NCBI GenBank assembly: GCA_016932615.1 | Contig: JAFGCN010000009.1 | Coordinates: 1 to 64,000 of the forward strand | DNA length: 64,000 nucleotides | Direction of reading: 5' to 3' | From: Candidatus Aenigmatarchaeota archaeon | GTDB taxonomy: Archaea; Aenigmatarchaeota; Aenigmatarchaeia; QMZS01 | Shown: positions 50,195 through 56,715 of the stretch, one piece after another | Position numbering within the stretch: the stretch's first letter is position 1 | How the letters are laid out: each line of letters begins with the position of its first letter | Notes under the pieces: model-generated | Databases searched by the model: none | Told to the model about the DNA's origin: nothing | The model's input: only the letters and a program-made list of their open reading frames with translations | Position numbers and translations under genes: made by a program

Positions 50195-51442
50195 TTAAAT
50201 CTGCTTTCTTGCTTTTTCTTCAGTTTCTTCCAGAAAACTGCCGTTTTGGGCAATCTGCGCCAGGAGCAGGTTTTCCAGATTTATGTTTGCCTGCCCGCTT
50301 TTCCCGTTTATCTTGAATGCTTTCGTGTAGAGGCCTTCTGAGTAGAGCGTTTCGATTACTGTAAGCCAGCCCTTGTTGTAAGGGAGGTAGGCGTCAAACC
50401 TCATGGCGTTGCCCCTCACCTTCCTGGAGATAACCCTGTAGCTGAGGCCGAACATGTCCATAAGCTCGAAAAGAAGCTTAGTGATCTGCTCCACTCTTGG
50501 GGCGTAGCCGGCGGGAGTCTCGAAAAAGGTGAGCAGGATTTTGCGGTTTTTTTCCGCGTAGAGGTAGTGCGGGCTTATGACTTTTCGCTTTTCAAGGGCC
50601 TTGTACAGGTTGAATGGAATTTCGTCGAAGACTACTCCCTTCTGGGTGGCTGAGAGGGACTTTACGTACCCGGTTATGAAGTACGCCTCGAAGAATTTCG
50701 GGTCGTCCTCGGTTTCGCAGAAAGTGTTGTTGAACGATTCCGGCGGCACAAGCTCGATTAATTCGGGGTTTTCAAGGAGGCCGAAAGAAGCGTGGCTTAT
50801 GGGGTAAAACTCTTCCAGCCGGAAGCTTTCGGAGAGCTTGTTTAGGACTTTATGCTTTATCTCGGTGATTTTTTCGGCGCCTTTGGGGAGGTAAAAGTAT
50901 TCCCCTTTTGCAAGCCCCCGTCTGGCAAGGTTATGCGTTTCCAGAATCTCGAAAGGGTTTTGTTTTGATGTGGTTGTAACGTCCTTTTTGCTGACAACTT
51001 TCCAGGCCTTTTCGGTTGCCTTGTCCTTAATCAGGTCTATGATTTTTTGCACGCCCCCGCTTCTTAAAAGGTCCTTTTCAAGGTCTTTGAAGACGACCTT
51101 GCACGTTTTGCCGTTGCATATGACAGTCTCCGTGAAGGGGATTTTGAGCTTTCCGACGTGCTCCAGGCCGAAGCTTATCTCATAGTAAGGAACGTAATAA
51201 TCCCGGACGCCAATCCTGTACTCCTTTCCCCATTCGGAGATTCTCTTTACAAGCGAGAGCATGAAGCGCGTGAGCTCCTCGGTTCCCTCCAGGGAGAGGA
51301 AAAGCCGGTTTGTGTTGCAGATTCCCCTCGTGTAGCGCTCTTTCGAGTACCTCTTTATCTTCTCCAGAAACCTCTTAGAAGCCACCTGTCCCAATTCCTC
51401 TGACAGCGCAACCGTAAGCTCCGCCTGCGAACTAAGGGGCAT
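50195..51442 (-). CDS. Unknown protein with possible degenerate class II aaRS-like fold
   Basis: 415 residues, no signal peptide. Two stretches recall class II synthetases: GEYFYLPKGAEKITEIKHKV (compare the F-W-L-P-K-G-A entry to motif 1) and LSYRVISRKVRG followed by MRFDAYLPYNKGW (compare the L-P-Y-R-V-V and Y-D-x-E-x-W-L-P region of SerRS). The catalytic arginine of motif 2 is not evident (LLTFFETP), so it is probably not an active synthetase. The link is inference from short motifs. Confidence 0.5.
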   Translation of the reverse strand: MPLSSQAELTVALSEELGQVASKRFLEKIKRYSKERYTRGICNTNRLFLSLEGTEELTRFMLSLVKRISEWGKEYRIGVRDYYVPYYEISFGLEHVGKLKIPFTETVICNGKTCKVVFKDLEKDLLRSGGVQKIIDLIKDKATEKAWKVVSKKDVTTTSKQNPFEILETHNLARRGLAKGEYFYLPKGAEKITEIKHKVLNKLSESFRLEEFYPISHASFGLLENPELIELVPPESFNNTFCETEDDPKFFEAYFITGYVKSLSATQKGVVFDEIPFNLYKALEKRKVISPHYLYAEKNRKILLTFFETPAGYAPRVEQITKLLFELMDMFGLSYRVISRKVRGNAMRFDAYLPYNKGWLTVIETLYSEGLYTKAFKINGKSGQANINLENLLLAQIAQNGSFLEETEEKARKQI

Positions 51443-51496: not shown

Positions 51497-51714
51497 GCGC
51501 TGGTCGTCTAGATGACCTGTATTTGCAAAAATACAGTTCTCAGGACATTGGCTATGATACCGGCTTGCCAAGCCGGCGACCCGGGTCAGACTTTCTTTCT
51601 TTCGCAAAAGAAAGAACTTCCGACACCCCAAAGAAAGAAAACGCGGTTAAAGCGGCTAGCTTACGACTGCGTTTATCTCCGGGGTGAAAGGGTTTTCGAA
51701 TCCCGGCCAGCGCA
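51497..51714 (+). tRNA. tRNA-Gly(GCC) with two introns (D-loop and T-loop)
   Basis: Exons at 51497-51511, 51549-51586 and 51696-51714 join into a complete 72-nt tRNA: acceptor gcgctgg/ccagcgc (7 bp perfect), D-arm gtctag + tggctatgat, anticodon arm ccggc-ttgccaa-gccgg (anticodon GCC, Gly), T-arm ccggg-ttcgaat-cccgg (perfect). Intron 1 (37 nt, 51512-51548) sits in the D-loop and folds as an 8-bp hairpin with a GCAA loop. Intron 2 (109 nt, 51587-51695) sits in the T-loop, with internal pairs such as cacccc/ggggtg. Boundaries are uncertain by 1-2 nt. The anticodon loop is uninterrupted. No CCA is encoded. Confidence 0.9.
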
Positions 51715-51792: not shown

Positions 51793-52404
51793 TCATAACA
51801 TTTTTCTAAGGAAATCAGTAGCAGTTAGCAAAATGATTGACCCCAGCATTATTGAAAACACTACAAGCAAAGAGTTAACGCTCAGTCCGTAGAATAGGGA
51901 TGCATTGCAGAATTTATTTTCGGTGAGAATTATTCCTAAGACAGAAATTAGTATGAGACCCACTATCCAAACAAATAGTTTTTGGACGGTATCTTTCAGT
52001 TCACTTTCCGTAGTCTTTAGATAAGAATGTAGGTCTATCCAGCCTTTGAGAAATCTCTTTATTTCGGGATCATTTTTCTGCTTTGACATTTTAGCCAGAA
52101 TCTTCAATAGATCTACTTTTTTGTTTTGCGGTCTGTAAGATTGGGTGATTTTGACTACATCAACCCACCAGGATTTCTGACGTTCTTTTATTTCTGAGAT
52201 CTTGAATATGAAAAACGTGCCAAATAAAGCTAAAAACGTGATAAATCCCTCTATAAATGATCCGTATAGCCAATAGGCTGCTTCAGGCCCTATAGTTAAA
52301 ATTTCTGAGGATATAAGGTAAGTAAAAGTAAGAGCAAGCAAGACTGATAGGAACACCTCTGGAGACCCTAGTTTTTTCGTTAAGTTTTTTGTGAATTTTA
52401 TCAT
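51793..52404 (-). CDS. Four-helix membrane protein of the accessory block, unknown
   Basis: 203 residues with two N-terminal hydrophobic helices (about 15-35 and 44-68), a long charged cytoplasmic middle (about 70-140) and two C-terminal helices (about 143-160 and 173-195). No family recognised. Codons favour A/T in the third position, unlike neighbouring chromosomal genes. It is divergent from the Trypco2-like gene. Confidence 0.6.
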   Translation of the reverse strand: MIKFTKNLTKKLGSPEVFLSVLLALTFTYLISSEILTIGPEAAYWLYGSFIEGFITFLALFGTFFIFKISEIKERQKSWWVDVVKITQSYRPQNKKVDLLKILAKMSKQKNDPEIKRFLKGWIDLHSYLKTTESELKDTVQKLFVWIVGLILISVLGIILTENKFCNASLFYGLSVNSLLVVFSIMLGSIILLTATDFLRKML

Positions 52405-52576
52405 AACTATACTGAGCCATATCTACTCTTTAAAGAGTTTGGCTTGAGAGTGTATGGTAAGGGTTTTGTAGTACATATGCCCCGCTAGTGCTGAAAAACT
52501 CCTTTTTTAACAGTTATGTTTATGGACCAAGAAGTCATGCTCGAAGAGATTTGGATAGGCAACAGGGTGTTTAGTT

Positions 52577-52930
52577 ATGAATGATGTAGAGAAGTTCGTA
52601 TCAGAAACTATAAATCAAATCAAGGCCGCTCTGCCAGAAGGATATATCCTAAATGGCAACTTAGATTTTGAGGTATCGGTTGCAACTACACAGGGAAAAG
52701 GCGGTAAAATTGACTTGAAGTTGGTTGGATTAGGTGATAGTTCAGATACCCAAAAAGTTCAAAAGATTAAGTTTTCTATAGTTGATGAAAGGGCTCAAAA
52801 GAAAAACCTGGCTCAGGTTTCTCTATTTATGAAAAGGATCATGGAGGATCTCGCCAAGGTAGATTCTTTGCAGAATACACCCTCATTGGATTACAAGGAG
52901 AAGGCCAAACCTGCCAATAGGAAGGGCTGA
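52577..52930 (+). CDS. Small Trypco2-like protein
   Basis: 117 residues. FVSETINQIKAALPEGYILN, then an F-E-V-S-V strand, a Gly/Lys turn, a D-L-K-L-V strand and KVQKIKFSIV are similar in order to the trypsin-co-occurring domain 2 family, small adaptors found beside effector genes in conflict systems. The match is by pattern only. A/T-rich like its neighbours, and 62 nt before the nuclease-like gene. Confidence 0.55.
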   Translation: MNDVEKFVSETINQIKAALPEGYILNGNLDFEVSVATTQGKGGKIDLKLVGLGDSSDTQKVQKIKFSIVDERAQKKNLAQVSLFMKRIMEDLAKVDSLQNTPSLDYKEKAKPANRKG

Positions 52931-52992
52931 CTAGCTAACTTCTACAGCGTCTTAAGTGAGTGTCTAGCTATATTCTGTAAATTCATAATACT

Positions 52993-54885
52993 ATGAAGGA
53001 TGACATAACCTCAAAGTATGAGCATAAAGCAGATGATCTTTTTGGGACATTAGAGATACTTAGAATAATTTTGGATTTAGATAAATTCCAGGCCTGGTTT
53101 AGCAAATCATACCAGAAGGATACTAGCGTATTGCTTGAAGGGTACAAATTATTCCTGGAAACCGCACTTCGGACTTTCTTTTACGAAATAGACTCTGACT
53201 GGTCTTTGGGATTGAAGGAAGACGCTATATTCTATCGAGCAGGTCATAGGGGAATTAATCTGGACAAAATCCCCAACACTTGTGAAAAAGTAATTCTGAT
53301 TAAAAATCTGGATAGTATGCGTAGAGATATTAGAAACTCAAGAAATTTTGATGAACTCTATCCATTAACCCAGAAGGTTAGGACTGAGTTGTTAGCCAGG
53401 TTTGTGCCAATCTATGATATGTTTGTTGAGGATAATCTGGGTTTCGGAAAGGATAATGCACTCAGGTATGCTGCGATGTTTCAAGCGCTAATCTTCTTCT
53501 CGGATACTTCTAAGAAGATACCCAAGGGTTATTATTTATTCTCACAAGTTGAGAGTCTTACGCGAAAGCAGTACAATGCTAGCTTTGAGGGATACAAATA
53601 CACCCTTCAATTCTTGTGGGAATCATTATTAGAGAAAGAATCCAAGCCTGAGTTCATTTCCGAAATGATAACTGCAAAAGATTGGTCTATAGATTTAGAC
53701 GTAGATTTCGAGAAGTTAGACGAATCTTTAGAAGCGCTAAAGGAGTCTCCTGGAGAAAGAGAAGACCTCGATAGTTATTTTGGGAGAATAAATGAAGGCC
53801 TCATTAAACCCTTGGAGAAAAGATTAAAATTTAAGTTCATTTCTCAGACGTTACTTTCCATTAAAACGAAGCCCCCCAAAGAGATATTTGGCTCTTTGCT
53901 AAATGTGCCTAAAATGGTGGAGCTAAGTGAGCAAGAGAAACTGAACTGCTTTCTTCTTTGGTATCCTATAGATTATCGTGATTCCTCTAAAGGGGGAGTC
54001 TTTAATGGTTCTTTAATGCTTATGTCCTTGATTGCAGGCTTTTCTGAAATAAAGGTCATGGACAACGTAGACTCTAAGGTTCAGGTCTGTAAATTCATAC
54101 ATCCCGTTGGATGGGCAAAGGATAAAAATGATTATAGCTATGGCATTTTGATTGAATCTTATGGCACATTTGGTTCAGATTTTTCTGGGTGGATTATGTT
54201 CTATGATTGCTGTGGAGATTATTCTGGATTTTCTGGAACCGAACATATGCAAATAGAAGCTATAATCGATTCCTATAAAAAACAAGGCTTAGTAGAGCTT
54301 AGGCAGATGACTATCGGCAAGAGTAGGCTTAGGAAGTATATTGCTAAATCAGTTGTAGGTGAGATATCTACTAAGATAGAGAACGAACTTGAGAAAACTT
54401 CTACGAAGAATAAAGAGCTATCGATAGTAAAGGATGCAAGAGGTTTGGTTAATGAATTATTCTCTTATTATATCCTCTCAAAACGCGATGGCTATGATGT
54501 GGATTGGAATGTTCATGCATCAGGCAAGCAGATAGATATTCGTTTAGAAAACGATGCTGAGGTTCTTTTGATTGAGTGCAAGGTTGACCCAAATAACCTG
54601 GACTTGGGTGATGAGCTACAACATCTTAAAGAGAGATTATCTCGGACTGATACTGAGAAGAAGAAACGAGGTATCTTTTGGTTTTGGGCTAAGCCTAGCG
54701 ATATAACTATTGATCGGATTGAAAAAGAAGGGTTTACCTGTGAGATTATTAAGAATCTCATTCAGAAAGATAGGCATATTAGTAAAAAGAAGCTGGATAC
54801 TTTAAGATATGTTCTCAATTACAAGGGAACTGCTGATAGGGAGGATTCCTTTGATAGTGATATGGGGATTCCTAGATCGATGTAG
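52993..54885 (+). CDS. 630-aa protein with C-terminal PD-(D/E)XK nuclease-like domain
   Basis: The last ~150 residues look like a restriction-endonuclease fold: a helix with Glu488 (VNELFSYYILSKRDGYDVDW), then Asp515 in GKQIDIRL, then Glu528-Cys-Lys530 in VLLIECKV, and Gln542 in the helix ELQHLKERL. This is the E...D-x12-ExK-(Q) order of Mrr-type nucleases. The first 460 residues are helical and then mixed, with no recognised domain. No membrane helix. The frame is A/T-rich with A/T third positions, differing from the chromosome around it. The context (tRNA gene, AbiE pair) suggests mobile defence. Confidence 0.68.
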   Translation: MKDDITSKYEHKADDLFGTLEILRIILDLDKFQAWFSKSYQKDTSVLLEGYKLFLETALRTFFYEIDSDWSLGLKEDAIFYRAGHRGINLDKIPNTCEKVILIKNLDSMRRDIRNSRNFDELYPLTQKVRTELLARFVPIYDMFVEDNLGFGKDNALRYAAMFQALIFFSDTSKKIPKGYYLFSQVESLTRKQYNASFEGYKYTLQFLWESLLEKESKPEFISEMITAKDWSIDLDVDFEKLDESLEALKESPGEREDLDSYFGRINEGLIKPLEKRLKFKFISQTLLSIKTKPPKEIFGSLLNVPKMVELSEQEKLNCFLLWYPIDYRDSSKGGVFNGSLMLMSLIAGFSEIKVMDNVDSKVQVCKFIHPVGWAKDKNDYSYGILIESYGTFGSDFSGWIMFYDCCGDYSGFSGTEHMQIEAIIDSYKKQGLVELRQMTIGKSRLRKYIAKSVVGEISTKIENELEKTSTKNKELSIVKDARGLVNELFSYYILSKRDGYDVDWNVHASGKQIDIRLENDAEVLLIECKVDPNNLDLGDELQHLKERLSRTDTEKKKRGIFWFWAKPSDITIDRIEKEGFTCEIIKNLIQKDRHISKKKLDTLRYVLNYKGTADREDSFDSDMGIPRSM

Positions 54886-55276: not shown

Positions 55277-55963
55277 ATGGATACCGTGACAATTTTGAGA
55301 AAGCTGGAGTCCAGGCCGGTTTTCAGGGTTCAGGACATAGAGCGGCTCTGCAACTGCGACAGATTATATGCAAGGCAGGTTCTCCACCGGCTTAAGGAGA
55401 AGGGGCATATAAGAAGGGTGACCGAGAACGCCTATACGACAAGCGATGACATTTACGCGATAGCAAGCAACATAGTAAGCCCAAGCTACATCTCTTTTTT
55501 CTCGGCTTCCTATTACCTTGGATATACCGAGCAGATAGTCATTTCAGTGCAGGTTGCAACGACCGTGAGGAAAAAGGAAATCCGCTTTGAGCATTACAAA
55601 ATAGAGTTTGTGCCGATGAAGCACTTTTTTGGCTACAGGAAGGTCAGCACGCCGAAAGGAGATACCTTCGTAGCAGAGGACGAAAAGCTTCTTATCGACT
55701 TGTTCTTGAAGCCGCAAAAGGCGGGAAACTTCGATGAAATAGAAAAGGTTTTCGAGGAGTCAAAAATCGATCCCGCAAAGCTCACTCAATACCTCAAGAG
55801 GGTTGGCAGCCAGTCGGTTACAAAGAGGGTGGGCTGCCTGCTGGAAAAGCTTAAAGGAATCGACCTGTCTAAGGAATTTTCCCTTGACAACAACTATGTA
55901 TTCCTCAACCCATATTCAAAAAAAGGAAAAACCCCCATAAGCAAGTGGAGGGTAAAAGTATGA
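55277..55963 (+). CDS. abiEi: AbiEi-family antitoxin
   Basis: 228 residues. An N-terminal winged helix (VFRVQDIERLCNCDRLYARQ) is followed by the antitoxin domain with SPSYISFFSASYYLGYTEQI, typical of AbiEi. Type IV antitoxins do not bind the toxin but oppose its effect, and they repress the operon. Its stop overlaps the AbiEii start by 4 nt (ATGA). Confidence 0.9.
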   Translation: MDTVTILRKLESRPVFRVQDIERLCNCDRLYARQVLHRLKEKGHIRRVTENAYTTSDDIYAIASNIVSPSYISFFSASYYLGYTEQIVISVQVATTVRKKEIRFEHYKIEFVPMKHFFGYRKVSTPKGDTFVAEDEKLLIDLFLKPQKAGNFDEIEKVFEESKIDPAKLTQYLKRVGSQSVTKRVGCLLEKLKGIDLSKEFSLDNNYVFLNPYSKKGKTPISKWRVKV

Positions 55964-56715
55964 TATCGAGAGAGGATTTGAGGGACTACGCAAGGATAAA
56001 AGGGCTTAACCTTGGGCAGGCGGAAAAAGACTATTTTCAAAACATTATACTTTTCATACTCTTTCAGGAGTATGGCAAAACACTTGTTTTTAAGGGAGGA
56101 ACTGCCCTAAGCAAGTGCTACGGCTCTTCAAGGTTTTCGGAAGACCTTGATTTTACCTGTGGGGAAGATTTCAGGCAGGATATTCTGGAAAGGGGGCTTA
56201 GGAGATTTGGGCTGGAATATTCAGTGAAGTTGAGAGCTTATGCGGTTGGGAAAAAGCTGACCTTGAGGATAAAGGGCCCTTTGTATATAGGCACTCTTCC
56301 AAGCCAGTGCACGCTTATTCTGGACATAAGCTTCAGGGAAAATATTGTACTTACCCCGGAGATAATTCCCCTTGGCAGTCTCTTGAAAGAGATCCCCGGG
56401 TTTAGCGTTTATGTGATGGACGAAAATGAAATCTTTGCCGAAAAAGTGAGGGTGATAATGACAAGAGACAAAGCTCGGGACGTCTATGACCTTTGGTTTC
56501 TGCTGGGCAAGGGCATCAAGTTCGACTTTGGGCTAATAGAGAAGAAGCTCGAATACTACAAAGACTCTTGGAGCAAGGGAAAATTCATAAAGGCGGTGCA
56601 GGACAAGGAAAAAATCTGGAAAACCGAAATGAAGCCGCTTATCGAGAATGTCCCCGAGTTTAAGGAAGTTAAATCCCTTATAGCAAAATCTCTTGAAAAT
56701 GGGCCTGCCGGGTAG
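55960..56715 (+). CDS. abiEii: AbiEii-family nucleotidyltransferase toxin
   Basis: 251 residues from the ATG at 55960. The nucleotidyltransferase motif GGTALSKCY (46-54) and, six residues on, the metal pair in SEDLDF (60-65) are intact, as is the later KVRVIMTRDKARDVYDLWF block. Characterised relatives transfer nucleotides to tRNA acceptor ends and block growth during phage infection. Codon use is closer to the chromosome than that of the A/T-rich block to the left. Confidence 0.92.
   Translation: MISREDLRDYARIKGLNLGQAEKDYFQNIILFILFQEYGKTLVFKGGTALSKCYGSSRFSEDLDFTCGEDFRQDILERGLRRFGLEYSVKLRAYAVGKKLTLRIKGPLYIGTLPSQCTLILDISFRENIVLTPEIIPLGSLLKEIPGFSVYVMDENEIFAEKVRVIMTRDKARDVYDLWFLLGKGIKFDFGLIEKKLEYYKDSWSKGKFIKAVQDKEKIWKTEMKPLIENVPEFKEVKSLIAKSLENGPAG

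Follow-up and report, generated by a model that had tools for sequence, protein, structure and literature searches.

A putative antiviral nuclease of an Aenigmatarchaeota genome belongs to a mostly archaeal family with a constant N-terminal domain and exchangeable C-termini

The locus described here lies in a 64,000-nucleotide stretch of DNA from Candidatus Aenigmatarchaeota archaeon (contig JAFGCN010000009.1, positions 1 to 64,000), referred to below as the window. Three open reading frames, all intact, occupy positions 51793-54885, where the first-pass annotation had placed them, between a tRNA gene and an AbiE system:

51497-51714, + strand: tRNA-Gly(GCC) gene, apparently with two non-canonical insertions; left flank of the island
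51793-52404, - strand: 203-aa putative membrane protein with four hydrophobic segments, divergently oriented, of no recognised family
52577-52930, + strand: 117-aa small protein, Trypco2-like at a score below the cut-off, ending 62 bp before the 630-aa gene
52993-54885, + strand: 630-aa two-domain protein, with an N-domain (residues ~1-455) and a C-terminal PD-(D/E)XK domain
52993-54357, + strand: N-terminal domain of the 630-aa protein (residues 1-455), family-defining (alignment A3)
54418-54762, + strand: PD-(D/E)XK core (residues ~476-590), with E488 in a helix, D515 in a strand and E528-C-K530 in a strand, followed by a helix and a strand
55277-55963, + strand: AbiEi antitoxin of a neighbouring, separate system (PADLOC, 6.6e-45)
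55945-56715, + strand: AbiEii toxin (nucleotidyltransferase) of the same neighbouring system (PADLOC, 1.2e-70)

The three genes differ in composition from their surroundings. Of the 58 ORFs in the window that reach 100 aa, they have the three lowest GC contents (35.5, 39.5 and 37.6 %, against a mean of 47.2 %, sd 2.8, for the remaining 55), in keeping with the A/T-rich, foreign-looking character first ascribed to them. The AbiE pair, in which AbiEi is followed by an overlapping AbiEii and which qualifies as AbiE, has a GC content normal for the window (46 and 44 %). Since the AbiE composition is normal and theirs the lowest, the three low-GC genes probably represent a recent acquisition that arrived separately from AbiE. 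On the left flank, positions 51497-51714 hold the acceptor, anticodon and T-arm sequences of a tRNA-Gly(GCC) that appears to be intron-split, with one insertion in the D-loop and the other in the T-arm region (positions approximate). At native length neither ARAGORN nor Rfam called a tRNA here; artificially shortened by removal of the insertions, the sequence is called tRNA-Gly by ARAGORN. AbiE aside, none of the nearby genes on either side was recognised as a defence gene, and no methylase or helicase was recognised among the nearest genes (scan of 50.2-58.0 kb). Beyond the tRNA gene lies a 415-aa protein (50195-51442, - strand) in which the seryl-tRNA synthetase-type N-terminal tRNA-binding part alone is recognised; it is found in 10 of the 11 genomes of the window's family, often with a thermosome-like gene adjoining. 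Gene order around the anchor gene in the nearest genomes is too little conserved for an empty site to be read.

Do the three genes form one module, as first proposed? The 117-aa protein matches Trypco2 (PF19631) over 41 of 78 positions at 18.2 bits, below the curated cut-off of 24.2, and BLAST shows no direct similarity between it and an archaeal Trypco2. Its Trypco2 identity is thus plausible as a weak profile match, short of the resemblance first claimed, and PF13365 (Trypsin_2) has no match in the window's genome, in a search whose control was positive in 13 of 14 genomes. Class-wide matches to the 117-aa protein were set aside as chance SepF-like or eIF5A-like similarities, judged from their sequences. 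The 203-aa protein does carry the four hydrophobic segments noted earlier; searches of Pfam, NCBIfam and PADLOC gave nothing significant for it, and a single uncharacterised PHROG matches it weakly (E 0.007). Homologues of the 117-aa or the 203-aa protein were detected neither in the fetched neighbourhoods of the 630-aa relatives nor in the plasmid searches, and the idea of one conserved three-gene module was therefore rejected: the 630-aa protein alone recurs. The membrane protein is left out of the system proposed below, being a candidate member at most.

The C-terminus of the 630-aa protein is a PD-(D/E)XK domain by its catalytic motif and predicted core fold, with nuclease activity predicted. 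E488, D515 and E528 are present in 13 of 13 PD-(D/E)XK members and K530 in 12, the exception being locus L004, where it is replaced by T. These four residues stand where they were first placed; the fifth that had been proposed, Q542, does not, since residue 542 is L and the Q at 543 is without conservation. The window protein shares 24-37 % identity with its relatives, and the conservation of the motif in 13 of 13 mostly far-diverged sequences rules out a chance occurrence. Folded apart, together with three relatives, the C-domain is modelled by AF2 in the order alpha-beta-beta-beta-alpha-beta, with a mean pLDDT of 65 and 70-90 in the core. The best Foldseek matches of this model in the PDB are MspJI (prob 0.98, E 4e-3), AF1548 (prob 0.96), Cdn1 (prob 0.99), Can2 and Nt.BspD6I; the E-values of 4e-3 to 3e-2 and TM of about 0.4 are modest, and metallo-beta-lactamase-fold proteins are also listed, so the fold call rests jointly on motif, topology and matches. 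Family members further match several PD-(D/E)XK Pfam families weakly (NERD, Card1, HindIII, Mrr_cat and PDDEXK_9). Taken together, the restriction-endonuclease-type C-terminus of the first-pass annotation is upheld, with an MspJI-like predicted core.

The ~460 unrecognised residues reported ahead of the nuclease remain so: in the Pfam, NCBIfam and PADLOC versions used, no profile recognises residues 1-455. Across 13 members, 18 N-domain residues are invariant (W35, G50, D77, A83, P177, G200, Y201, K296, W323, G349, H370, S382, Y383, G399, W400, F403, D409 and I425). The first 280 residues are predicted helical, the first half of the domain being mostly helical and the second half alpha/beta. 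Residues 10-225 are modelled as helical with pLDDT mostly of 75-94, with dips, and the remainder is poorly modelled. The full-length model, built from a five-row alignment, has a mean pLDDT of 55.6 and gives no meaningful match in the PDB. No member gave a P-loop NTPase match.

In alignment A3 the N-terminal ~455 residues are conserved in all members, while the C-terminus varies between three types: PD-(D/E)XK, Schlafen/AlbA_2 and a helical domain. The Schlafen/AlbA_2 type is represented by one A3 member, L037 by its sequence (SLFN_AlbA_2, E 1.8e-19), and the helical C-terminus is common to L036 and L050. Over 206 aa, the L036 C-terminus shares 31 % identity with the C-terminal end of a HEAT-repeat protein whose gene directly adjoins the L031 family gene. 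When a domain is fused in one genome and encoded by an adjacent gene in another, this classically points to a functional link. The HEAT-repeat protein itself (L031:10595-14044, - strand) is 1149 aa long, and this third kind of family effector is a homologue of its C-terminal domain. At L005:2480-2496 the reading frame breaks at an A run exactly between N-domain and nuclease, which could mean that the assembly is wrong here, that slippage occurs, or that two genes overlap.

Relatives of the 630-aa protein were first found in the Aenigmatarchaeota MAG AUK066 (L002/L004, 37 %), ANME-1 GoMg2 (L006) and plasmid pNG500 of Haloarcula marismortui (L003, WP_011222360.1), with a further one in a Kiruna 'Bacteroidetes' bin (L005), a putative bin placement. 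The family thus recurs in Aenigmatarchaeota, ANME-1, Halobacteriota and one 'Bacteroidetes' bin and is mostly archaeal. Its presence is sporadic. The ANME-1 phylum carries it in 13 of 394 genomes, two of the 13 as relics, and one methanogen-like family, overlapping that set, in 6 of 112. The full-length protein occurs in 2 of the 156 genomes of the window's phylum (G000 and G066); within the window's own family, the 10 further genomes lack it. Short Mrr/ATP-cone-type proteins in three genomes of the phylum (L009-L011) share the nuclease domain alone and were not counted as members. Truncated relics lie at L041:9353-9565 and L042:8964-9248, the former among methyltransferase-type genes in the place that holds a full copy in L032. 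Three scans of viral contigs yielded no relative, and the matches in a phage collection were chance polymerase matches; a viral origin was set aside. In the N-domain tree the window, Haloarcula and L005 proteins cluster together (100/98), separately from the members linked to R-M, the place of the Haloarcula sequence being unsure given its very long branch and odd composition. Since it belongs to the same N-domain clade, the Avs/trypsin-linked L005 is a better guide to the window copy than the R-M-linked members, and the Trypco2-like gene beside the window copy fits this kinship.

Genes of known immune systems recur beside the relatives. For R-M, this holds at 4 of ~14 distinct loci, always in the same orientation. 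A type IIG Eco57I/TaqI_C enzyme precedes the family gene in L004, with a 4-base overlap, and in L006, at about 80 bp; in L034 the family gene follows an Eco57I type IIG methylase with an AAA gene between; and in L050 it stands at the head of a type I operon, hsdM-hsdS-GmrSD-hsdR (the hsdR assignment coming from the start of the sequence alone), and has an OLD-like gene on its opposite flank. The probability that 4 of 13 loci adjoin an R-M gene by chance is 1e-8 to 1e-4, at an assumed background of 0.2-2 %. These four relatives weaken the methylation-independence once proposed for the window genes, which had been drawn from the lack of a methylase or helicase nearby; the lack itself stands for the nearest genes. 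In L005 a trypsin-fronted Avs2-type gene starts 17 bp downstream (E 5e-109 against the first 250 positions of the PADLOC Avs2 model), and the contig ends inside that gene. A NACHT NTPase lies 1.9 kb upstream of the family gene in L033, and a HEPN-annotated gene and a Mrr-like gene lie nearby in L003. L049 has a PDC-S01 candidate nearby, of the common AAA/DUF4143 type and therefore weak evidence. At about six loci (L032, L035-L040) no neighbour is clearly a defence gene, a HerA/VirB4-like ATPase in L035 aside, and no CRISPR genes were noticed at the loci read.

The 630-aa protein probably serves in antiviral defence as a component so far unrecognised. More specifically, we lean, by a small measure, towards a nuclease that responds to infection and belongs to a sensor-plus-effector defence family, mostly archaeal and hitherto undescribed. 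The constant N-domain would sense an infection cue or bind a partner and keep the C-terminal effector in check; once released, the PD-(D/E)XK effector of the window copy would cut DNA and thereby restrict phage or arrest the cell. A sensing role for the N-domain is a guess, because its fold is poorly modelled and without a meaningful PDB match. On this proposal the N-domain would define the system and the effector would be exchangeable, with other members carrying Schlafen/AlbA_2 or a helical domain of the recruitment type in its place. Relatives would act alone or alongside type IIG or type I R-M, trypsin-Avs or NACHT systems, and the 117-aa Trypco2-like protein could serve as an adaptor at the window locus. 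For this reading we weighed the conserved catalytic residues, the C-domain model, the C-terminal swap, the defence contexts, the sporadic presence and the foreign GC; against it, the roughly six loci without a defence neighbour, the poor N-domain model, the K530T replacement in L004 and the lack of 117- or 203-aa homologues near relatives. Of the undescribed defence module first suggested, the undescribed family and its defence contexts survive, the three-gene unit does not.

Alternatively, the family could supply an accessory R-M subunit, a second or backup nuclease firing when a type IIG or type I system is inhibited or escaped, the window copy being an orphan. The four R-M-adjacent loci speak for this role; loci without R-M genes are at least as many, the type IIG neighbours appear, from a reading of their sequences, to have an N-terminal nuclease of their own, and the window protein clades away from the R-M-linked ones. 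We regard it as unlikely. Somewhat less probable still is a nuclease switched by a protease, in which a trypsin-like or other peptidase, coupled through Trypco2, would cleave or displace the N-domain and free the nuclease. By analogy, the L005 gene occupies, upstream of its trypsin-fronted neighbour, the slot of the pro-nuclease described in PMC12799240, and the window copy falls in the L005 clade with a Trypco2-like gene 62 bp upstream; however, the window's genome has no Trypsin_2 match, the Trypco2 match is below cut-off, and the protease stands beside one relative only, on a contig that ends inside its gene. We give least credence to a maintenance gene of a plasmid or integrated element whose nuclease would process element DNA and not serve host defence. 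The plasmid-borne Haloarcula copy, the HerA/VirB4-like ATPase of L035 and the tRNA genes flanking the L038 and window copies speak for it; against it stand the lack of relatives among the viral contigs and phages searched, the recurrence of R-M, Avs and NACHT neighbours, and an effector swap to Schlafen/AlbA_2 that is a habit of conflict systems.

How does an infection-responsive nuclease of this kind compare with known systems? The CRISPR ancillary nucleases Card1, Can2 and Cdn1 place a C-terminal PD-(D/E)XK domain behind a regulatory N-domain, the role proposed here for the constant domain, and the last two rank high among the Foldseek hits of the C-domain. However, no CARF profile matched the N-domains of the 13 members, whose model is poor for fold comparison; the first 280 residues are predicted helical, and no CRISPR gene was noticed. 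MspJI and the Mrr-like enzymes (AF1548, Mrr_cat) share the core and the E..D..ExK order, MspJI and AF1548 being the top structural matches, and the family profile also picks up Mrr-type proteins. The family differs from them in its N-domain, in which no modified-base-reading domain is recognised, and in scoring below the Pfam cut-offs. Nuclease-protease pairs are known from Avs, Hachiman, Lamassu and DRT, with metallo-beta-lactamase pro-nucleases that are paired with trypsin and switched proteolytically in Avs and Hachiman (PMC12799240). In L005, similarly, the nuclease gene immediately precedes a trypsin-fronted gene of Avs type. Differently to the HamM/Avs1a type, the family fold is PD-(D/E)XK and the window locus lacks a protease; the Avs/Hachiman switch can serve as a concrete model for L005-type members, with a different nuclease fold in the slot.

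The PD-(D/E)XK superfamily and the sensor-nuclease-fusion layout are thus known, and the constant N-domain is new to the libraries searched, of which PADLOC is the 2023 version, so that a later description is possible. No paper describing the family was found in accessible full text, subscription papers and preprints being mostly beyond reach. More tentatively, at clearly less than even confidence, the ~455-residue N-domain might represent a new archaea-centred class of immune sensor with interchangeable effectors that plugs into R-M, Avs and NACHT systems; it may do so by guarding R-M integrity or through release by proteolysis. In a 2026 survey of 7747 archaeal genomes, nothing besides CRISPR-Cas and R-M was detected in nearly one third, with the suggestion that homology-based detection may miss some archaeal strategies (PMC12988326). 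None of the Pfam, NCBIfam and PADLOC versions consulted here contains the present family, although it is spread over several archaeal lineages and lies beside known immune genes; its member in a cultured Haloarcula makes it bench-testable. If the N-domain is a sensor, it would offer a starting point in the search for more archaeal systems, since the effectors are exchanged.

Conflict systems, those with Trypco2 among them, typically combine a constant component with swapped effectors (PMC7159879), and the family likewise has a constant domain, exchangeable effectors and, in the window, a Trypco2-like neighbour. It differs in that no STAND, MoxR, vWA or GTPase component was found beside the window gene and that its constant domain lies outside the library families. 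Elsewhere (L058:1213-3184), an archaeal Trypco2 adjoins a protein that, by its sequence, looks like a peptidase of the subtilisin type with TPR repeats and not like a trypsin.
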